A DNA stretch of 64,000 bases from an uncultured Alphaproteobacteria bacterium (GTDB taxonomy: Bacteria > Pseudomonadota > Alphaproteobacteria > Micropepsales > Micropepsaceae), in assembly GCA_902825865.1 (NCBI GenBank), contig CADECX010000007.1, positions 11,638-75,637 of the forward strand. The letters run 5' to 3'. The notes under the pieces were generated by a model, which was not told the origin of the DNA, did not search any database, and saw only the letters and a list, made by a program, of their open reading frames with translations. Below are positions 7,151 through 15,770 of the stretch, piece after piece (the stretch's first letter is position 1; every line of letters starts with the position of its first letter). The translations under genes were made by a program, and so were the position numbers.

Positions 7151-7223
7151 CGTTTCTGCGCGACGGCCTTGACCGCCTCGATCCCCTGGGCTCTTTTTGA
7201 GCGATCCGGCGGGAGACTTGGCA

Positions 7224-7916
7224 ATGTCCAACGCGCCTTTGGGACAATTCCATCGCGGCGATGCGGAGCCCAGGGTGCCGCTGTCCAGCAAGCTGACGGC
7301 GATCGGCCTCACCGCCGGCGTCTATGCCCTCATCACGGTGATGGCGTCGCAGCACGGCGCCTATACACCGCCCCGCCGTCCGCAAGCCTCGCAGGTCCTG
7401 GGCGCCACGGCGCCGCTGCTCGCGCCGGACAAGACGGCCCGGCCCCGCCAGTCCTGGTTCCTGGTTGAACCGCCCGGCGAGACGCTTTCCTCTTCCGCGC
7501 CGTCTTCCGCCGCCATGACCGGCCCCACCATCGGCTTCACCTTCGGCTCCGGCTCCGGTTCCGGCAGTGTGGCGGGCGGATGCTATGACGCGGGTTGGGC
7601 CAAGGCGGTGAACGAGAAGGTCCGCAGCCGCATGCCGCCACAGATGCGAGACGGCGTGGCCTTTGTGCGTTTTGTCGCCCGCCGTGACGGGCGGCTGGAG
7701 CAGCTGGAGATCGTCAAATCGTCCGGCGACAAAATCCTGGACGATGCCGCTTATCAAATGGTGCACGATGCCCAGCCCCTGCCCCGCATTCCCCGCTGGA
7801 TGCAGCTGGAGCGAGTCGATGCCGTCTTGCCCATCGCCTTTGGCAAGATGTCCGGAAAATTCAAGCCCAGCGAGGGCAATTGCGCCCCCGATCCCGTGCT
7901 GAACCGCGAGACCTGA
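7224..7916 (+). CDS. TonB-like energy transducer
   Basis: A 230-residue protein starting at ATG 7224 (GGGAG 8 nt upstream). One membrane helix (around residues 25-45, LTAIGLTAGVYALITV) is followed by a low-complexity linker rich in Ser, Gly and Ala (GSGSGSG), rather than the usual Pro-rich spacer. A TonB_C-like domain forms the last about 90 residues (GVAFVRFVARRDGRLEQL, then LDDAAYQMV). It probably couples inner-membrane proton motive force to an outer-membrane receptor. No exbB/exbD lies nearby. Confidence 0.82.
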   Translation: MSNAPLGQFHRGDAEPRVPLSSKLTAIGLTAGVYALITVMASQHGAYTPPRRPQASQVLGATAPLLAPDKTARPRQSWFLVEPPGETLSSSAPSSAAMTGPTIGFTFGSGSGSGSVAGGCYDAGWAKAVNEKVRSRMPPQMRDGVAFVRFVARRDGRLEQLEIVKSSGDKILDDAAYQMVHDAQPLPRIPRWMQLERVDAVLPIAFGKMSGKFKPSEGNCAPDPVLNRET

Positions 7917-9302: not shown

Positions 9303-9339
9303 TACGAAAGTCTTCGTTGACTCTACGAACAGCTTCGTA
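9303..9339. promoter_or_regulatory. Tandem BlaI-type operators over the blaI promoter
   Basis: Two copies of the dyad TACGAA-N4-TTCGTA: 9303-9318 (TACGAAAGTCTTCGTT, one mismatch) and 9324-9339 (TACGAACAGCTTCGTA, perfect). Their centres are exactly 21 bp apart. A -35-like TTGACT (9317-9322) lies between and within them and a TATTAG-like -10 overlaps the second box. Bound repressor would therefore block the promoter 14 bp before the blaI start. Confidence 0.75.
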
Positions 9340-9352
9340 TTAGCCTTGGTCG

Positions 9353-9748
9353 ATGAAGAAACAGCCTCAGAAACCCACCGCCTCCGAACTGGAAATCCTG
9401 CATGTGCTGTGGGCCAAAGGCCCTTCCACGGTGCGCGAGGTCCACGACTCGCTCAGCGAAAAGAAAAGCATGGGCTATACCGGGGTGCTCAAGCTTTTGC
9501 AGATCATGACCGCCAAGGGCACGGTGCGCCGCGACGAAAGCCAGCGCGCCCATGTCTACACGTCTGTCCGCCCGGCGGAACAGACCAAGCGCCAGCTGGC
9601 CAGCGACATGCTGGAGCGGGTGTTCGAAGGCTCGGCCAGCCAGCTGATGATGCATGCGCTGTCGGGCCAGAAAACCTCACCCGAGGAAATCGAAGAACTG
9701 CATCGCATCCTGGAGGCTTATAAAGGGGGAAAGGATGGCAAGCCTTAG
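9353..9748 (+). CDS. blaI: BlaI/MecI-family transcriptional repressor
   Basis: A 131-residue winged-helix repressor. SELEILHVLWAKGPSTVREV and YTGVLKLLQIM form the DNA-binding domain, and the C terminus is a helical dimerisation region. The family binds dyads as dimers and is cleaved or released when its M56 partner senses a signal. The tandem operators directly upstream imply autorepression. Its 3' end overlaps the M56 peptidase start by 14 nt. The ribosome-binding site is weak. Confidence 0.93.
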   Translation: MKKQPQKPTASELEILHVLWAKGPSTVREVHDSLSEKKSMGYTGVLKLLQIMTAKGTVRRDESQRAHVYTSVRPAEQTKRQLASDMLERVFEGSASQLMMHALSGQKTSPEEIEELHRILEAYKGGKDGKP

Positions 9749-12026
9749 CAGCTGGCTTTCCCCTGTGGTGATGCGCGCATTGGGATGGGCGTTGATCCAT
9801 TCGCTGTGGCAATGCCTGGCCATCGCGGCCCTCGCCGCTTTGCTGATGGCTTTTTCCCGCCGCCCTCCCCTGCGCTACACGATTGCGGTGGGTGCACTGG
9901 CGCTGATGCTGGCGGCGCCCGTCATCACATTTTTGCTTCTGGTCCAGCCGTCTGTGCCCCAGAGCATTGTCCTCCAAGCCAGTCCGCTTGATCTTGCTCC
10001 GATTGCCGCCGCGCCAGGCGCCCGCGTGATCGCGGCCATACAGGACACGCCGCGCCTGATCCCGGCCCAGAGCATCCTGCCCTGGCTGGTGGCGGCCTGG
10101 CTCACCGGTGTCGTCTTCTTCAGCCTGCGCTTTTTCGGCGGCTTCCTGCTGTTGGAGCGCAAGCGCCGCCAGTCATTCGCGCCCGATGCGCGCATTCTGC
10201 ACCTGTGCCGCGAGATTCAAGCCCAGCTCGGCCTGACCCGCGCCATCCGCTATCTGGAATGCGGCTGGCTGCAAGCCCCCGCCGTGATCGGCTGGCTGAG
10301 GCCCATCGTCCTCATCCCCGTCACCGCGCTTACCGGACTGTCGGAGGCGCAATTGCGCGCCGTGATCGCCCATGAGCTGGCGCATATCCGCCGCTTCGAT
10401 GTTTTCGTGAATCTGTTCCAGATTTTTGCCGAGACCCTGCTCTTCTATCATCCCGCCACCTGGTGGCTGAACAGGCGCATCCGCGCCGAACGCGAATTGT
10501 GCTGCGATGAGATCGCGCTGTCGGTCGCCGGCGACCGTTTGGACTATGCCAGGGCGCTGACCCTGATGGCGCAATGGGAGGCGCCGCCGCGCCTGGCCAT
10601 GGCCGCCAACAGCGGCGTGCTCAGCGAACGCGTCTTTTATATTCTGGGGCGTCCGCCGTCCGGCGCGGGCCAGCGCATGATCGGGCTCACCGGCAGTGTG
10701 CTGTTTCTGGCCGCCGCGCTGGCCTGCGCCAATGCCTTGTTCGTGGTCGCCGCCCCGCCCATCGTCCAGGCCGGCGAGACGATGAAAATTGGCCTGCAAA
10801 CCGCTCTGTCCGCCGTCAGCGATCGCGCGCGGCAGATATTCCCCGAAAGCGAGCCGGCCGGAAAAGACGCGAACAAGACCGCTTCCATTTCCAAGGCCGA
10901 ACCGGCGAAAGAGGTGCCTGCCGCAACGCCGGTACCGCCGCCCGCCGACCTGTCGCAGTTCCTGCCCAAGCCGGCGCTTTCAACCCCGCCGCTGGCGCCG
11001 CGCACCATCACGGCATCCGCGCCGCCCGTTCCAGCCTCGTCGACCGCACCGCAGCCGGTGGCGCGTCCCTGCTACAACCGCAATGTCTATGGCCGGGTGG
11101 TGTCCGCTTCGGCGATCCAACTGCAAGGCTTCAACTGCCTTCTTTTTCCCAACACCCCGGTGGATATGACGCCGGCCCGCATTTCCTACGGCTCGTGCCC
11201 GGACTTGGGCACCAATCCCAACCGGTACGATCGCACCACCAACAACCGGCTCGGACGGGCCGCCTGCAAGTTTGACGTCACCATGGGCGTCAAGTTCGCC
11301 GACCCCGCCGATGCGCTCCTGATGCAGCCCGGCCAAATGGTGATGCTAACGGGGCGCTTTTTCCGCATTCCGGCGGGCTCCCGTGCCGACAGTCTTGCCG
11401 TGACCGATGCCAGGATCAGCGGAAGCGATCCCTCCTCGCGCCTGGCCAAGGGTGGGCCCGGGGAAAGTCCGGCAACTGTGATGGCGCAGGCAGACGCGCC
11501 GGCCTCGTCCGCCCCGCCCGCGCCGGCAGCGCTCATCATACCGCCCACCGAAATGAGCATCGTCCACTTCTGCCGCAATCGCAGCGTCTTCGGCCAGGTG
11601 ACGGCGCCAAACACCGTCGCCATTCAGGGCTTCACCTGTTTTGTGGATGGCGATCCCAGCGGCACGGTCTCGGCCCGCGATATCCCATTGGGCGACTGTC
11701 CGCTGGCCAGCACCACCACCGCCCACAAAAACAAGTGCAAGTTCGACGTGGTTTTGAATGTGCGTCTCGCCAATCCCGCCGAGGCCGCCAAAATGATACC
11801 GGGCAAGCTGGTGCGGCTGGGCGGCGATTTCCGTGTCTGGAAGGAAGACAAGCTCGACTATGTCGCCGTGGCCAATGCCAAAGTGTTGTTCACTGACTAT
11901 TACTGGTTCGGCGGAATCTCGAATCTCCCGCTGCCGATGGGCCCGCCACCTTCCGGTAGCAATTCGGGGACGTCGGACTACATCGCTCCCGCCATGATCG
12001 GAGGCGCCGTGTTCAACGGCCGGTAA
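9735..12026 (+). CDS. BlaR1-like M56 metallopeptidase with duplicated Cys-rich periplasmic region
   Basis: A 763-residue protein from ATG 9735 (GGGGGAAAGG upstream). About four membrane helices (near 15-40, 47-70, 115-140, 322-342) surround the zinc protease motif HELAH (213-217) and RELCCDE. A Pro/Ala-rich linker (about 370-440) leads to two homologous segments, about 445-563 and 612-720. Each carries four matching Cys and the pattern IQLQGFNC / IQGFTC ... CKFDV. This replaces the penicillin-binding sensor of classical BlaR1. It probably senses an envelope signal and inactivates BlaI. The ligand is unknown. Confidence 0.88.
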   Translation: MASLSSWLSPVVMRALGWALIHSLWQCLAIAALAALLMAFSRRPPLRYTIAVGALALMLAAPVITFLLLVQPSVPQSIVLQASPLDLAPIAAAPGARVIAAIQDTPRLIPAQSILPWLVAAWLTGVVFFSLRFFGGFLLLERKRRQSFAPDARILHLCREIQAQLGLTRAIRYLECGWLQAPAVIGWLRPIVLIPVTALTGLSEAQLRAVIAHELAHIRRFDVFVNLFQIFAETLLFYHPATWWLNRRIRAERELCCDEIALSVAGDRLDYARALTLMAQWEAPPRLAMAANSGVLSERVFYILGRPPSGAGQRMIGLTGSVLFLAAALACANALFVVAAPPIVQAGETMKIGLQTALSAVSDRARQIFPESEPAGKDANKTASISKAEPAKEVPAATPVPPPADLSQFLPKPALSTPPLAPRTITASAPPVPASSTAPQPVARPCYNRNVYGRVVSASAIQLQGFNCLLFPNTPVDMTPARISYGSCPDLGTNPNRYDRTTNNRLGRAACKFDVTMGVKFADPADALLMQPGQMVMLTGRFFRIPAGSRADSLAVTDARISGSDPSSRLAKGGPGESPATVMAQADAPASSAPPAPAALIIPPTEMSIVHFCRNRSVFGQVTAPNTVAIQGFTCFVDGDPSGTVSARDIPLGDCPLASTTTAHKNKCKFDVVLNVRLANPAEAAKMIPGKLVRLGGDFRVWKEDKLDYVAVANAKVLFTDYYWFGGISNLPLPMGPPPSGSNSGTSDYIAPAMIGGAVFNGR

Positions 12027-12058: not shown

Positions 12059-13042
12059 ATGAAACCGATCGCAATCCTCACCGCGCTTGTTCTCGCCACG
12101 CCCGCTTTGGCGCAACCCCGCACCGTCGGCGGCCTGCCGGAAGAAAGCGTCACCGTGGTCGGCGTCAAGCCGTCGGAACAGACGATCCGCGATTTCGTGG
12201 AAACGCGGGTGGCGCGGTCGCGCACTCTGGGCAAGGTGGCGCGCTGGGACGCGCAGGTCTGCCCCTTGACGGTGGGACTGCGCGCCGACTACGCCAACTA
12301 TATCAGCCAGCGCATCCGCGAAGTCGCCGCCGCCGTCGGCGCGCCGGTCAATTCCGATCCCGACTGCCGCGCCAATATCGAAGTGGTCTTCACCGCCACG
12401 CCCCAGGACCTGATGGACAGTGTGCGCAAGAAACAGCCTTTGTTCATCGGCTATTTCCAGAATCTGGATGAAGCCAACCGGCTGGCCAAGGTCACCCATC
12501 CCCTGCAGGCCTGGTACACCACCCAGACCGCGGACTTCTACAACAACAAGGTAATCGACAATGGACGCTGCGGCCTGGGCGACACCACCAGCCTGAGCCC
12601 GGTGACGTCGCCGTCAACCACGGAAGTCACCGACATGTTCACCGCCCCCGGCGTCAAGTCGCCGTCGCTGCCCTGCGCGACGGTGGCGCATGTCAGCCAT
12701 TCGCGGCTCAACAACGGGCTCAACACCGCATTTTACAATGTGCTGGTGGTGGCCGAACCGGCCAAGCTGCTGGATCATGAGATCGGCAGCCTGGCCGATT
12801 ACATCGCCATGATGGCCTTGTCCCAGCCCGCCTCGCTGGACAGTTGCCAGGAACTGCCCAGCATTTCCAACATGCTGGCGCCGGGATGCGCCACGGTGCC
12901 CACCCGCATCACCGATGGCGATCTTGCCTATCTGCGCGCGCTCTACCGCACGGTGGACGGTTCGGCCTTTGTCACCCAACGCAATTATATGCGCGCCCAA
13001 ATGTACAAAACCCTGGTGACCGACAAGGGCGGCCCCGGTTAA
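12059..13042 (+). CDS. Exported protein, first of a tandem paralog pair
   Basis: 327 residues from ATG 12059 (AGGAAGA upstream), with a signal peptide ending ALAQP. Conserved stretches shared with the next gene are ESVTVVG near the start, ANIEVVFTATPQ, LQAWYTT and DYIAMMALSQP...DSCQELPSISN. Two Cys pairs are likely disulfides. No catalytic motif is recognised. It follows the BlaI-BlaR1 pair by 32 nt and could belong to the same regulated unit. Function unknown. Confidence 0.78.
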   Translation: MKPIAILTALVLATPALAQPRTVGGLPEESVTVVGVKPSEQTIRDFVETRVARSRTLGKVARWDAQVCPLTVGLRADYANYISQRIREVAAAVGAPVNSDPDCRANIEVVFTATPQDLMDSVRKKQPLFIGYFQNLDEANRLAKVTHPLQAWYTTQTADFYNNKVIDNGRCGLGDTTSLSPVTSPSTTEVTDMFTAPGVKSPSLPCATVAHVSHSRLNNGLNTAFYNVLVVAEPAKLLDHEIGSLADYIAMMALSQPASLDSCQELPSISNMLAPGCATVPTRITDGDLAYLRALYRTVDGSAFVTQRNYMRAQMYKTLVTDKGGPG

Positions 13043-13076: not shown

Positions 13077-14000
13077 ATGAAGCTCTTGCCCGCCTTTTGT
13101 TCGCTGCTTCTTCTGGCCGCGCCCGCCTTCGGACAAGAGGTCGACCTTTCGTCGCAAGCCGCCGAAAGCGTCACCGTGACCGCCACACCCCTGCCGGGCC
13201 GCTCGGCGGTGGACGAATTCATCTATTCCTATCCCAGGGTGTCACGCCGGTCCGAAAAGATCCCGCGCTGGAAGAACGGCATCTGCCCGGTGGTCGAGGG
13301 CCTGCCCCCCGACTTTGCCGCCTTCATCGCCACCCGGATCAAGGCGATCGCGCAAAAGGTGGGGGCACCGGTCAGTGCCGATCCCAAATGCCGGCATAAT
13401 ATCCAGATCCTCTTCACCGCCCGCCCGCAGGCTGTCGGCGACGCGCTGCGCAAGGGCAAGGCCTATTATCTGGGCTGGTTCGACAATCTGCATCAGGCCG
13501 ATGAATTGGCGACGGTGACGCACGACATCCAGGCCTGGTACACCACAGCGACGGTCAGTTATTCCGGCGGCTGGAGTGTCGATCTGCCCCGCGCCAATTT
13601 CTTCAACAGCAATTCCTATGGCTTCACCGGCGGCAATGCCGAAGACTTTCTCGGCGTCGGCAAGGTCGGCGGGCGGATCAACAACGGCATCGCCAGCTAT
13701 CTGCACAATGTGATCATCGTCGCCAACAGCAGCAAGCTCGGGGATTATGAGATGGGCGCGGTGGCCGATTATATCGCCATGCTGGCCTTGTCCCGGCCCA
13801 AGAGTTTCGACAGCTGCTGGGAAGTGCCCAGCATCACCAATCTTCTGGCCAAGGATTGCGAGAAGCTGCGCAAGACCGCCACCCTCAGCGACAATGACGA
13901 GGCCTTCCTGCACGGGCTCTACAAGATGAGCACGGGGGCCTCGGAATTTCAGCAGCGCTCCGAAATCCGCTATTTCGTGCAGAGGAATAAGGAGCGGTAG
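13077..14000 (+). CDS. Exported protein, second of a tandem paralog pair
   Basis: 307 residues with a signal peptide ending AFGQE. It is collinear with the 12059 product: ESVTVTATP, HNIQILFTARPQ, IQAWYTT, DYIAMLALSRP and DSCWEVPSITN. GGGG lies about 9 nt before the start. The pair clearly arose by tandem duplication and lies 34 nt apart. Both are probably periplasmic. No known domain identified. Confidence 0.78.
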   Translation: MKLLPAFCSLLLLAAPAFGQEVDLSSQAAESVTVTATPLPGRSAVDEFIYSYPRVSRRSEKIPRWKNGICPVVEGLPPDFAAFIATRIKAIAQKVGAPVSADPKCRHNIQILFTARPQAVGDALRKGKAYYLGWFDNLHQADELATVTHDIQAWYTTATVSYSGGWSVDLPRANFFNSNSYGFTGGNAEDFLGVGKVGGRINNGIASYLHNVIIVANSSKLGDYEMGAVADYIAMLALSRPKSFDSCWEVPSITNLLAKDCEKLRKTATLSDNDEAFLHGLYKMSTGASEFQQRSEIRYFVQRNKER

Positions 14001-14915: not shown

Positions 14916-15770
14916 ATGCGCGCCGCTTTTCTCTTCGGCCTTTTTTTCCTCGCCACCGGCGCGAACGCCCAAACATGTCCCCGGCTGGCCACGGTCGAGA
15001 CCAGCACTTTGCTCGACGGCCGCATCCTGGTGCCCGTGCTTGTGGAAGGACGCGGCCTTTCCTTGCTGCTGGATACCGGCGGCATCTCGACCACCATCAA
15101 ATGGGAACGGGTGCAGGATTTGGGCCTGCCGGCCCGGAAAACCATGCGCAAGCTTCGGGGCGCGGCGGGCACCGTGCTGAACAGCTACATCACCGGCGAG
15201 GATTTCCGGATCGGGAATTTGCGCGTCGAGAGCAAGCCGATGTATCTGGAAACCCGTCCCATATTCGGGGCCGACGGCACTTTGTCGCCCGATATTCTGC
15301 GCAACTATGACGTGGATATCGATCTCTCGCAGGACCGTTTCAGCCTGATGCCGCCCGGCGCCTGCGAACCGGATGACGCCATCGCGATCCCGATCCAAGT
15401 CACAAAGGGCGGGCAGGTGCGCTTTCCCGTCAAGGTCGACGGCAGGACCATCATGGCCACCCTGGACACCGGCACCATGACATCCCTGGTCAGCATCAAG
15501 ACGGCCAAGCAGCTTGGCATCTATCCCAATTCGTCGAAACTGAGCTTGACGCGCCGCTCCGGCTCCTTCCGCATCTATGATTATCCGTCTCAGAGTCTGG
15601 AGATCGGCGGCATAAAAATGCCCAATCCCAACATCAATGTCGCCAGCGAGAATTTCATTCCCGGCCCGGCGGGCGATCTGATCTTGGGCATCGGCGCCTT
15701 GCGCCAGATGCACATCACCATCGCCTATAGCCGGCACACACTCTATATCCGGCTGCCGCTGCGCAGTTGA
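14916..15770 (+). CDS. Exported retropepsin-like protein, paralog
   Basis: 284 residues with a signal peptide (GLFFLATGANAQ). Two Asp-Thr-Gly motifs occur, LLLDTGGIS near residue 53 and TLDTGTMTS near 190. Its layout matches the protein at 591-1481 throughout (STTIKWE, YLETRP, NYDVDIDL, GDLILGIGAL). It follows the exported methyltransferase by 10 nt. Probably periplasmic; substrate unknown. Confidence 0.85.
   Translation: MRAAFLFGLFFLATGANAQTCPRLATVETSTLLDGRILVPVLVEGRGLSLLLDTGGISTTIKWERVQDLGLPARKTMRKLRGAAGTVLNSYITGEDFRIGNLRVESKPMYLETRPIFGADGTLSPDILRNYDVDIDLSQDRFSLMPPGACEPDDAIAIPIQVTKGGQVRFPVKVDGRTIMATLDTGTMTSLVSIKTAKQLGIYPNSSKLSLTRRSGSFRIYDYPSQSLEIGGIKMPNPNINVASENFIPGPAGDLILGIGALRQMHITIAYSRHTLYIRLPLRS

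Follow-up and report, generated by a model that had tools for sequence, protein, structure and literature searches.

A probable BlaI/M56 operon with a tandem four-cysteine module instead of a recognisable beta-lactam sensor, and sensor exchange among its relatives

The DNA analysed here is a stretch of 64,000 nucleotides (the window) that carries a BlaI-type repressor gene, an M56 protease gene and two genes for exported proteins. We read these, with a probability of roughly 60%, as an autoregulated BlaI/M56 operon whose tandem C-terminal module responds to some envelope signal that is not a beta-lactam, and whose sensor is exchangeable. Our case is built from sequence, namely from the gene layout, the catalytic motifs, the repeat, the missing penicillin-binding motifs, the operator, the exchange of sensors and the linkage of the genes. 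The results support an earlier proposal, based on a sequence-only reading of the window, that BlaI/M56 logic has been reused here with a sensor for a non-beta-lactam envelope signal.

According to the mechanism that we propose, the BlaI repressor would sit on a double dyad overlapping its own promoter. In the membrane-spanning M56 protein, the zinc protease would face the cytoplasm, and two tandem modules of the disulfide type, with a probable OB fold, would be exposed to the periplasm. Once the tandem module has read the signal (a ligand or partner other than a beta-lactam), the activated M56 protease would bring about cleavage of BlaI, and the loss of BlaI would derepress blaI, the M56 gene and the genes of two exported proteins of a family named ES here, after its ESVTV motif. 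Several modules would be interchangeable at the sensor position, each of them taken over from an exported protein of this lineage. As a tethered copy, the sensor may report on the state of its free exported relative or on what this relative binds. Coordinates of all features are given in Table 1.

Table 1. Features of the operon and of related genes in the window
Feature	Position	Strand	Basis or remark
TonB-like gene	7197-7916		1.4 kb before blaI; 45% identical to the TonB-like gene following a free-standing module
Candidate double-dyad operator TACGAA-N4-TTCGTTGACTCTACGAA-N4-TTCGTA	9303..9339	+	13 bp before blaI
BlaI/MecI-type winged-helix repressor, 131 aa	9353..9748	+	Pfam Penicillinase_R, 5.6e-28
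M56 protease-sensor ORF, BlaR1-type	9735..12026	+	763 aa, ATG at 9735
M56 membrane/protease core, residues 21-301	9795..10637	+	Pfam Peptidase_M56, E 2.7e-31
HELAH zinc-protease motif, residues 213-217	10371-10385	+	motif scan
ELCCD motif, residues 254-258	10494-10508	+	motif scan
Last hydrophobic segment, residues about 314-347	10674..10775	+	Kyte-Doolittle scan
Module a, residues about 445-563, Cys 446/468/488/511	11067..11423	+	self-alignment
Module b, residues about 612-720, Cys 613/635/655/668	11568..11894	+	self-alignment; modelled
ES-family exported protein 1 (ES1), signal peptide MKPIAILTALVLATPALA	12059..13042	+	32 bp past the M56 stop
ES-family exported protein 2 (ES2), 39% identical to ES1	13077..14000	+	34 bp downstream of ES1
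Exported protein with two retropepsin-like domains	14916..15770	+	Pfam Asp_protease_2, two stretches, 3.6e-21

Repressor and operator

The repressor scores 98 bits against the BlaI/MecI family PF03965 (cut-off 22.6), and its gene is paired with that of the M56 protein. Just ahead of blaI, two dyads (TACGAA-N4-TTCGTT at 9303-9318 and TACGAA-N4-TTCGTA at 9324-9339) flank a -35-like TTGACT hexamer. Judged by its letters, this is a dyad operator at the repressor's own promoter, as is typical for BlaI/MecI, and BlaI would be expected to bind it. Scanning the 3.77-Mb genome for the dyad with at most one mismatch yields two matches, both within the candidate operator, against four for a backwards control pattern. 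In a search of 96 family genomes that tolerated three mismatches at most, the composite operator is found in four, each time as a single site with no mismatch, and the control pattern gives no match. Each of these four sites directly precedes a blaI-M56 pair, and the specified positions are identical in the four species.

Other operator types are seen as well. A second BlaI clade of the genus (including L108, L109, L114, L117, L118, L120-L124, L128 and others) has a conserved promoter-proximal dyad of the GCCAA-TTTTT-GGC type directly before the gene, and its M56 partners have Ala/Glu-rich C-termini. In a third BlaI group (L096-L098) two ATACA-N2-TGTAT-like dyads are placed around TTGACT in a layout like that of the window operator; these dyads are nearer to the classical BlaI box than the window operator is.

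The M56 protease

The M56 gene, which shares its first 14 bp with the end of blaI, has no internal stops, and its frame and coordinates check out. Its product scores 109.3 bits for Peptidase M56 (PF05569, cut-off 31). The zinc motifs of S. aureus BlaR1 are H201EXXH and E242XXXD (PMC9834060), and the spacing of 41 residues between H213ELAH and E254LCCD in the window protein is equal to theirs. The Pfam match, the two motifs and the intact reading frame agree with the earlier description of the membrane-protease half as classical. Hydrophobic segments are found at residues ~18-42, 45-75, 113-141 and 314-347, and a weaker one (181-202) falls within the M56 core. As expected, this layout matches the BlaR1 plan, and the last segment is predicted to lead to the extracytoplasmic side. 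For the S. aureus autocleavage site (Ser283-Phe284) and the BlaI cleavage residues no confident equivalents can be assigned in the window proteins.

Against the NCBIfam BlaR1 equivalog (NF000326) the whole protein scores 79.6 bits, which is below the cut-off of 400. Given this score and the missing penicillin-binding set described below, it is no BlaR1 in the strict sense, though its working is probably BlaR1-like.

The tandem module

The two modules are 31% identical over 124 aligned columns (blastp E 8e-20). Their Smith-Waterman score of 188 far exceeds those of 2000 shuffles (31 +/- 5, maximum 58), so the repeat is not a matter of chance. All four Cys are in register between the copies, which also have QGF-x-C and CKFDV in common. 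A duplicated four-Cys module with aligned Cys and shared motifs had been described from the letters alone; the copies do align, yet only Cys1 and Cys2 are ancestral. These two are invariant in all eight modules compared, M56-borne and free-standing, whereas Cys3 and Cys4 sit in an insert between strands 2 and 3 that occurs only in M56-borne copies. Because of this restriction, the duplication probably came after the fusion to M56. The Cys pairs of the modules would be expected to form disulfides.

Searches of the modules against Pfam, NCBIfam, PDB sequences and PADLOC give no family match, and thus no beta-lactam- or peptidoglycan-binding family. SxN, YxN and KTG-type motifs are absent from the window M56 protein, and its sole SxxK is an SISK at residue 384, in the linker; the class-D-like penicillin-binding sensor of BlaR1 (SxxK/SxN/KTG) is therefore not found. 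The earlier statement that no penicillin-binding Ser-x-x-Lys motif is apparent holds for the modules. That the modules stand in place of a beta-lactam sensor is correct insofar as there is no such sensor, but 'instead of' is the better wording: among 54 M56 proteins compared, the C-terminus is generally something other than a beta-lactam sensor.

Given no input alignment beyond that of the two window copies, AlphaFold models module b in the order beta-beta-beta-alpha-beta-beta, which is that of an OB fold (mean pLDDT 64, core strands near 80). In a Foldseek search with this model the best E is 0.03 and no match is significant; the top list consists mostly of OB folds (SSB, PriB, RPA, RMI, CST and potempin C). 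As a lead from the model, the module is a probable OB fold.

Exchange of the sensor

Surveying M56 C-termini and linked genes, we find other modules on closely related cores, and the family downstream of the window protein recurring beside M56 genes. The four M56 proteins that share the operator differ in their C-termini: the window protein has the OB-like pair, L102 two retropepsin-like domains, L090 an ES domain and L088 a two-Cys module, here CR. In the tree of M56 cores, the window protein, L102 and L090 make up a starred set of three (SH-aLRT 96), and the window core is 69% identical to its nearest relative, L102. A larger starred set, of six, also takes in L088, L076 (TonB_C type, from the same genome as the window) and the incomplete L115. 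Along the M56 proteins, similarity extends beyond the last hydrophobic segment, reaches into the linker and is lost from there on. Because the cores cluster and the operator is identical while the C-terminal modules are unrelated, we conclude from sequence comparison that the outer module has been exchanged on an unchanged core and operator. These same-operator relatives with other C-terminal modules bear out the earlier suggestion that BlaI/M56 logic was reused. We found no account of M56 sensor exchange in the literature, our coverage of which is incomplete.

The OB-like, CR, ES and retropepsin-like domains are each known both as exported free protein and as M56 C-terminus, and for every sensor type seen in the clade there are free-standing exported proteins that consist of it or contain it. 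Genes of the CR, ES and retropepsin families moreover recur within the M56 loci themselves. The retropepsin-like gene at 14916..15770 is probably transcribed separately from the operon; members of its family are again met next to M56 genes and as C-termini of M56 proteins.

Several further architectures may be mentioned. L102 and L104, which lie apart from each other in the M56 tree, have retropepsin-like C-termini and so combine a metalloprotease with an aspartic-protease-like sensor within a single polypeptide. An M56 protein with a C-terminal Peptidase_M23 domain (L126, G021:C6; 1.8e-28) is possibly a peptidoglycan-reading version. Small exported CR proteins (CRxPQ-LPGSR-GPxVC-W) adjoin M56 genes at L074, L080, L084, L086-L089 and L105, and nearly all M56 proteins next to CR genes end in the same CR module. 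Retropepsin-like exported proteins are common in the genus and elsewhere recur between M56 and ES genes; the window holds a second protein with paired domains (about 624-1463, + strand), which is 53% identical to the one listed in Table 1.

The downstream ES genes

No family is found for the ES proteins in Pfam, PDB or PADLOC, and their AlphaFold model (pLDDT 37.6) is too low for use. Kinship to DUF2927 was considered and is unsupported (hhalign probability 5%, E 0.0074 over 62 columns). From the gene order, the operon probably consists of blaI, the M56 gene, ES1 and ES2; we let it end after ES2 because a G+C-rich inverted repeat stands between 14000 and the next gene.

ES genes are present in 21 of the 96 family genomes, with 70 matches counted and up to 17 copies per genome, and for 26 of the 70 an M56 gene is at most 10 kb away. 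Conversely, 15 of the 32 M56 genes of ES-bearing genomes are within 10 kb of an ES gene, against 0.96 expected at random in a placement simulation with rounded genome sizes and contig counts. The paralogs noticed downstream in the sequence-only reading belong to this family, which recurs next to M56 genes. The ES loci that were read in other families of the class show no M56 or BlaI gene nearby, and for this reason the ES family is probably older than its regulation by M56/BlaI.

At L083 (G025:C195) an array of seven ES genes follows a single blaI-M56 pair, and a retropepsin-like gene stands in between. The single real M56-ES fusion is L090; another candidate, G047:C113 (L093), turned out to be an over-extended ES reading frame.

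Free-standing relatives and the nature of the signal

Searches with single modules gave few matches, and a profile was needed to find relatives. By profile search the module is present in seven of the 96 family genomes, all of one genus, and in none beyond these seven in a class-wide sample of 385 genomes. One further profile match, L031 (E 0.001), was discarded as a transporter-like false positive. Outside the window gene the module is always borne by a free-standing protein; in most of these, a segment resembling a signal peptide can be seen at the N-terminus. Such proteins are encoded at G000:C43 (the same genome as the window) and in six other genomes, with profile E down to about 1e-57; they have one copy each, keep the first Cys pair and lack the Cys3/Cys4 insert. 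The architecture of two modules on an M56 core is seen in one genome only (0 of the 95 other family genomes, and none in the rest of the class-wide sample), and a contig search with the full-length window protein returned M56-core relatives only. No M56 or BlaI gene is found beside the genes of free-standing modules; the one of this genome lies on a different contig with no M56 gene nearby. Since the M56-borne modules are only ~24-33% identical to these relatives, a 'tethered copy' would not be a recent duplication.

The main rivals to our reading of the signal are a link to TonB and a redox signal. The tandem module might sense the TonB system, which energises the outer membrane, or a ligand that depends on TonB. 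In all five loci with sequence available, the next gene after the free-standing module is TonB-like; the window holds a related gene before blaI (Table 1), and other M56 proteins of the genus end in TonB_C. Nonetheless, the adjacency in the window is a single case that could be due to chance, small unrelated ORFs intervene and no receptor gene is linked, which makes this explanation unlikely.

Rather improbable, too, is a sensor of redox or disulfide stress, in which a reversible Cys3/Cys4 disulfide would report periplasmic oxidation or failed disulfide formation. The confinement of the Cys3/Cys4 insert to M56-borne modules, beside an invariant Cys1/Cys2, would fit such a role, and conserved Cys are also present in ES and CR proteins. 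As a rule, however, Cys pairs of exported domains serve a structural purpose, and the retropepsin, ES and TonB_C sensors of the same clade are without such a pair, which argues against a clade-wide redox signal.

A conventional BlaR1, still responsive to beta-lactams or muropeptides via an unrecognised site, would agree with the classical BlaI/M56 pairing and with the action that peptidoglycan fragments reportedly can have on the B. licheniformis BlaI system (PMC3305447), but it is very improbable given modules without the SxxK/SxN/KTG set, a window M56 protein with no transpeptidase, PASTA, LysM or SPOR match, and an operon without a beta-lactamase or PBP gene. We also reject a CopY-type metal sensor with modules binding zinc or copper: despite four Cys per module and some kinship between CopY and BlaI (TIGR02698, E 9e-14), the repressor contains no Cys and reaches 51.8 bits against a cut-off of 121.95, Cys3 and Cys4 are not kept in the free-standing relatives, and the operon contains no metal transport gene.

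Under our main reading, the occurrence of the same domains in exported proteins and as M56 C-termini suggests that the sensor controls the protein class of which it is a tethered copy. BlaR1 would be in keeping with this: its sensor resembles class-D beta-lactamases (PMC7593790), and its cargo is a beta-lactamase. Extended to the whole genus, M56/BlaI might form a chassis for plug-in sensors, each of them copied from a family of exported effectors (OB-like module, ES, retropepsin-like, CR or TonB) and tethered to the protease, which would monitor the state of this effector class outside and tune its supply. We regard this extension as tentative and somewhat doubtful; if true, BlaR1 would be one case of a general rule by which the sensor is a copy of the cargo.

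Comparison with known systems

What is known of BlaR1 concerns almost exclusively its role as the receptor for beta-lactams in inducible staphylococcal resistance. A common operator, cores about 70% identical and unrelated outer modules would make M56/BlaI a general route from envelope to transcription. The operator-sharing proteins amount to natural sensor swaps, with one core and operator and different inputs, and the ES family, so far without annotation, provides definite target genes in need of an explanation. The M56/BlaI logic itself is already known. In the literature, again with incomplete coverage, we did not find described a tandem OB-like sensor, a conserved double-dyad operator with exchanged sensors, or an ES regulon.

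CopY and TcrY copper repressors belong to the same superfamily as the window BlaI, which falls under their cut-off, has no Cys and is partnered with an M56 protease. The M56 proteins of the same genus (TonB_C, M23, retropepsin-like, CR and ES types) have the same core and repressor pairing with sensors unrelated in sequence, and three of those with other C-termini share the exact operator of the window.

With the BlaR1-BlaI and MecR1-MecI systems of S. aureus and B. licheniformis (PMC9834060) the window operon shares an M56 protease with HExxH and ExxxD motifs, an adjacent gene for a BlaI-type repressor, a C-terminal domain past the last hydrophobic segment that is extracytoplasmic (by prediction in the window protein), and a dyad operator before the regulators. 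It differs in having a tandem four-Cys, OB-like module and no class-D beta-lactamase-like sensor. The classical BlaI operator is of the TACA/TGTA type, whereas that of the window is TACGAA-N4-TTCGTA; and the cargo of BlaR1 is a beta-lactamase, whereas the window operon carries exported proteins of the ES family.
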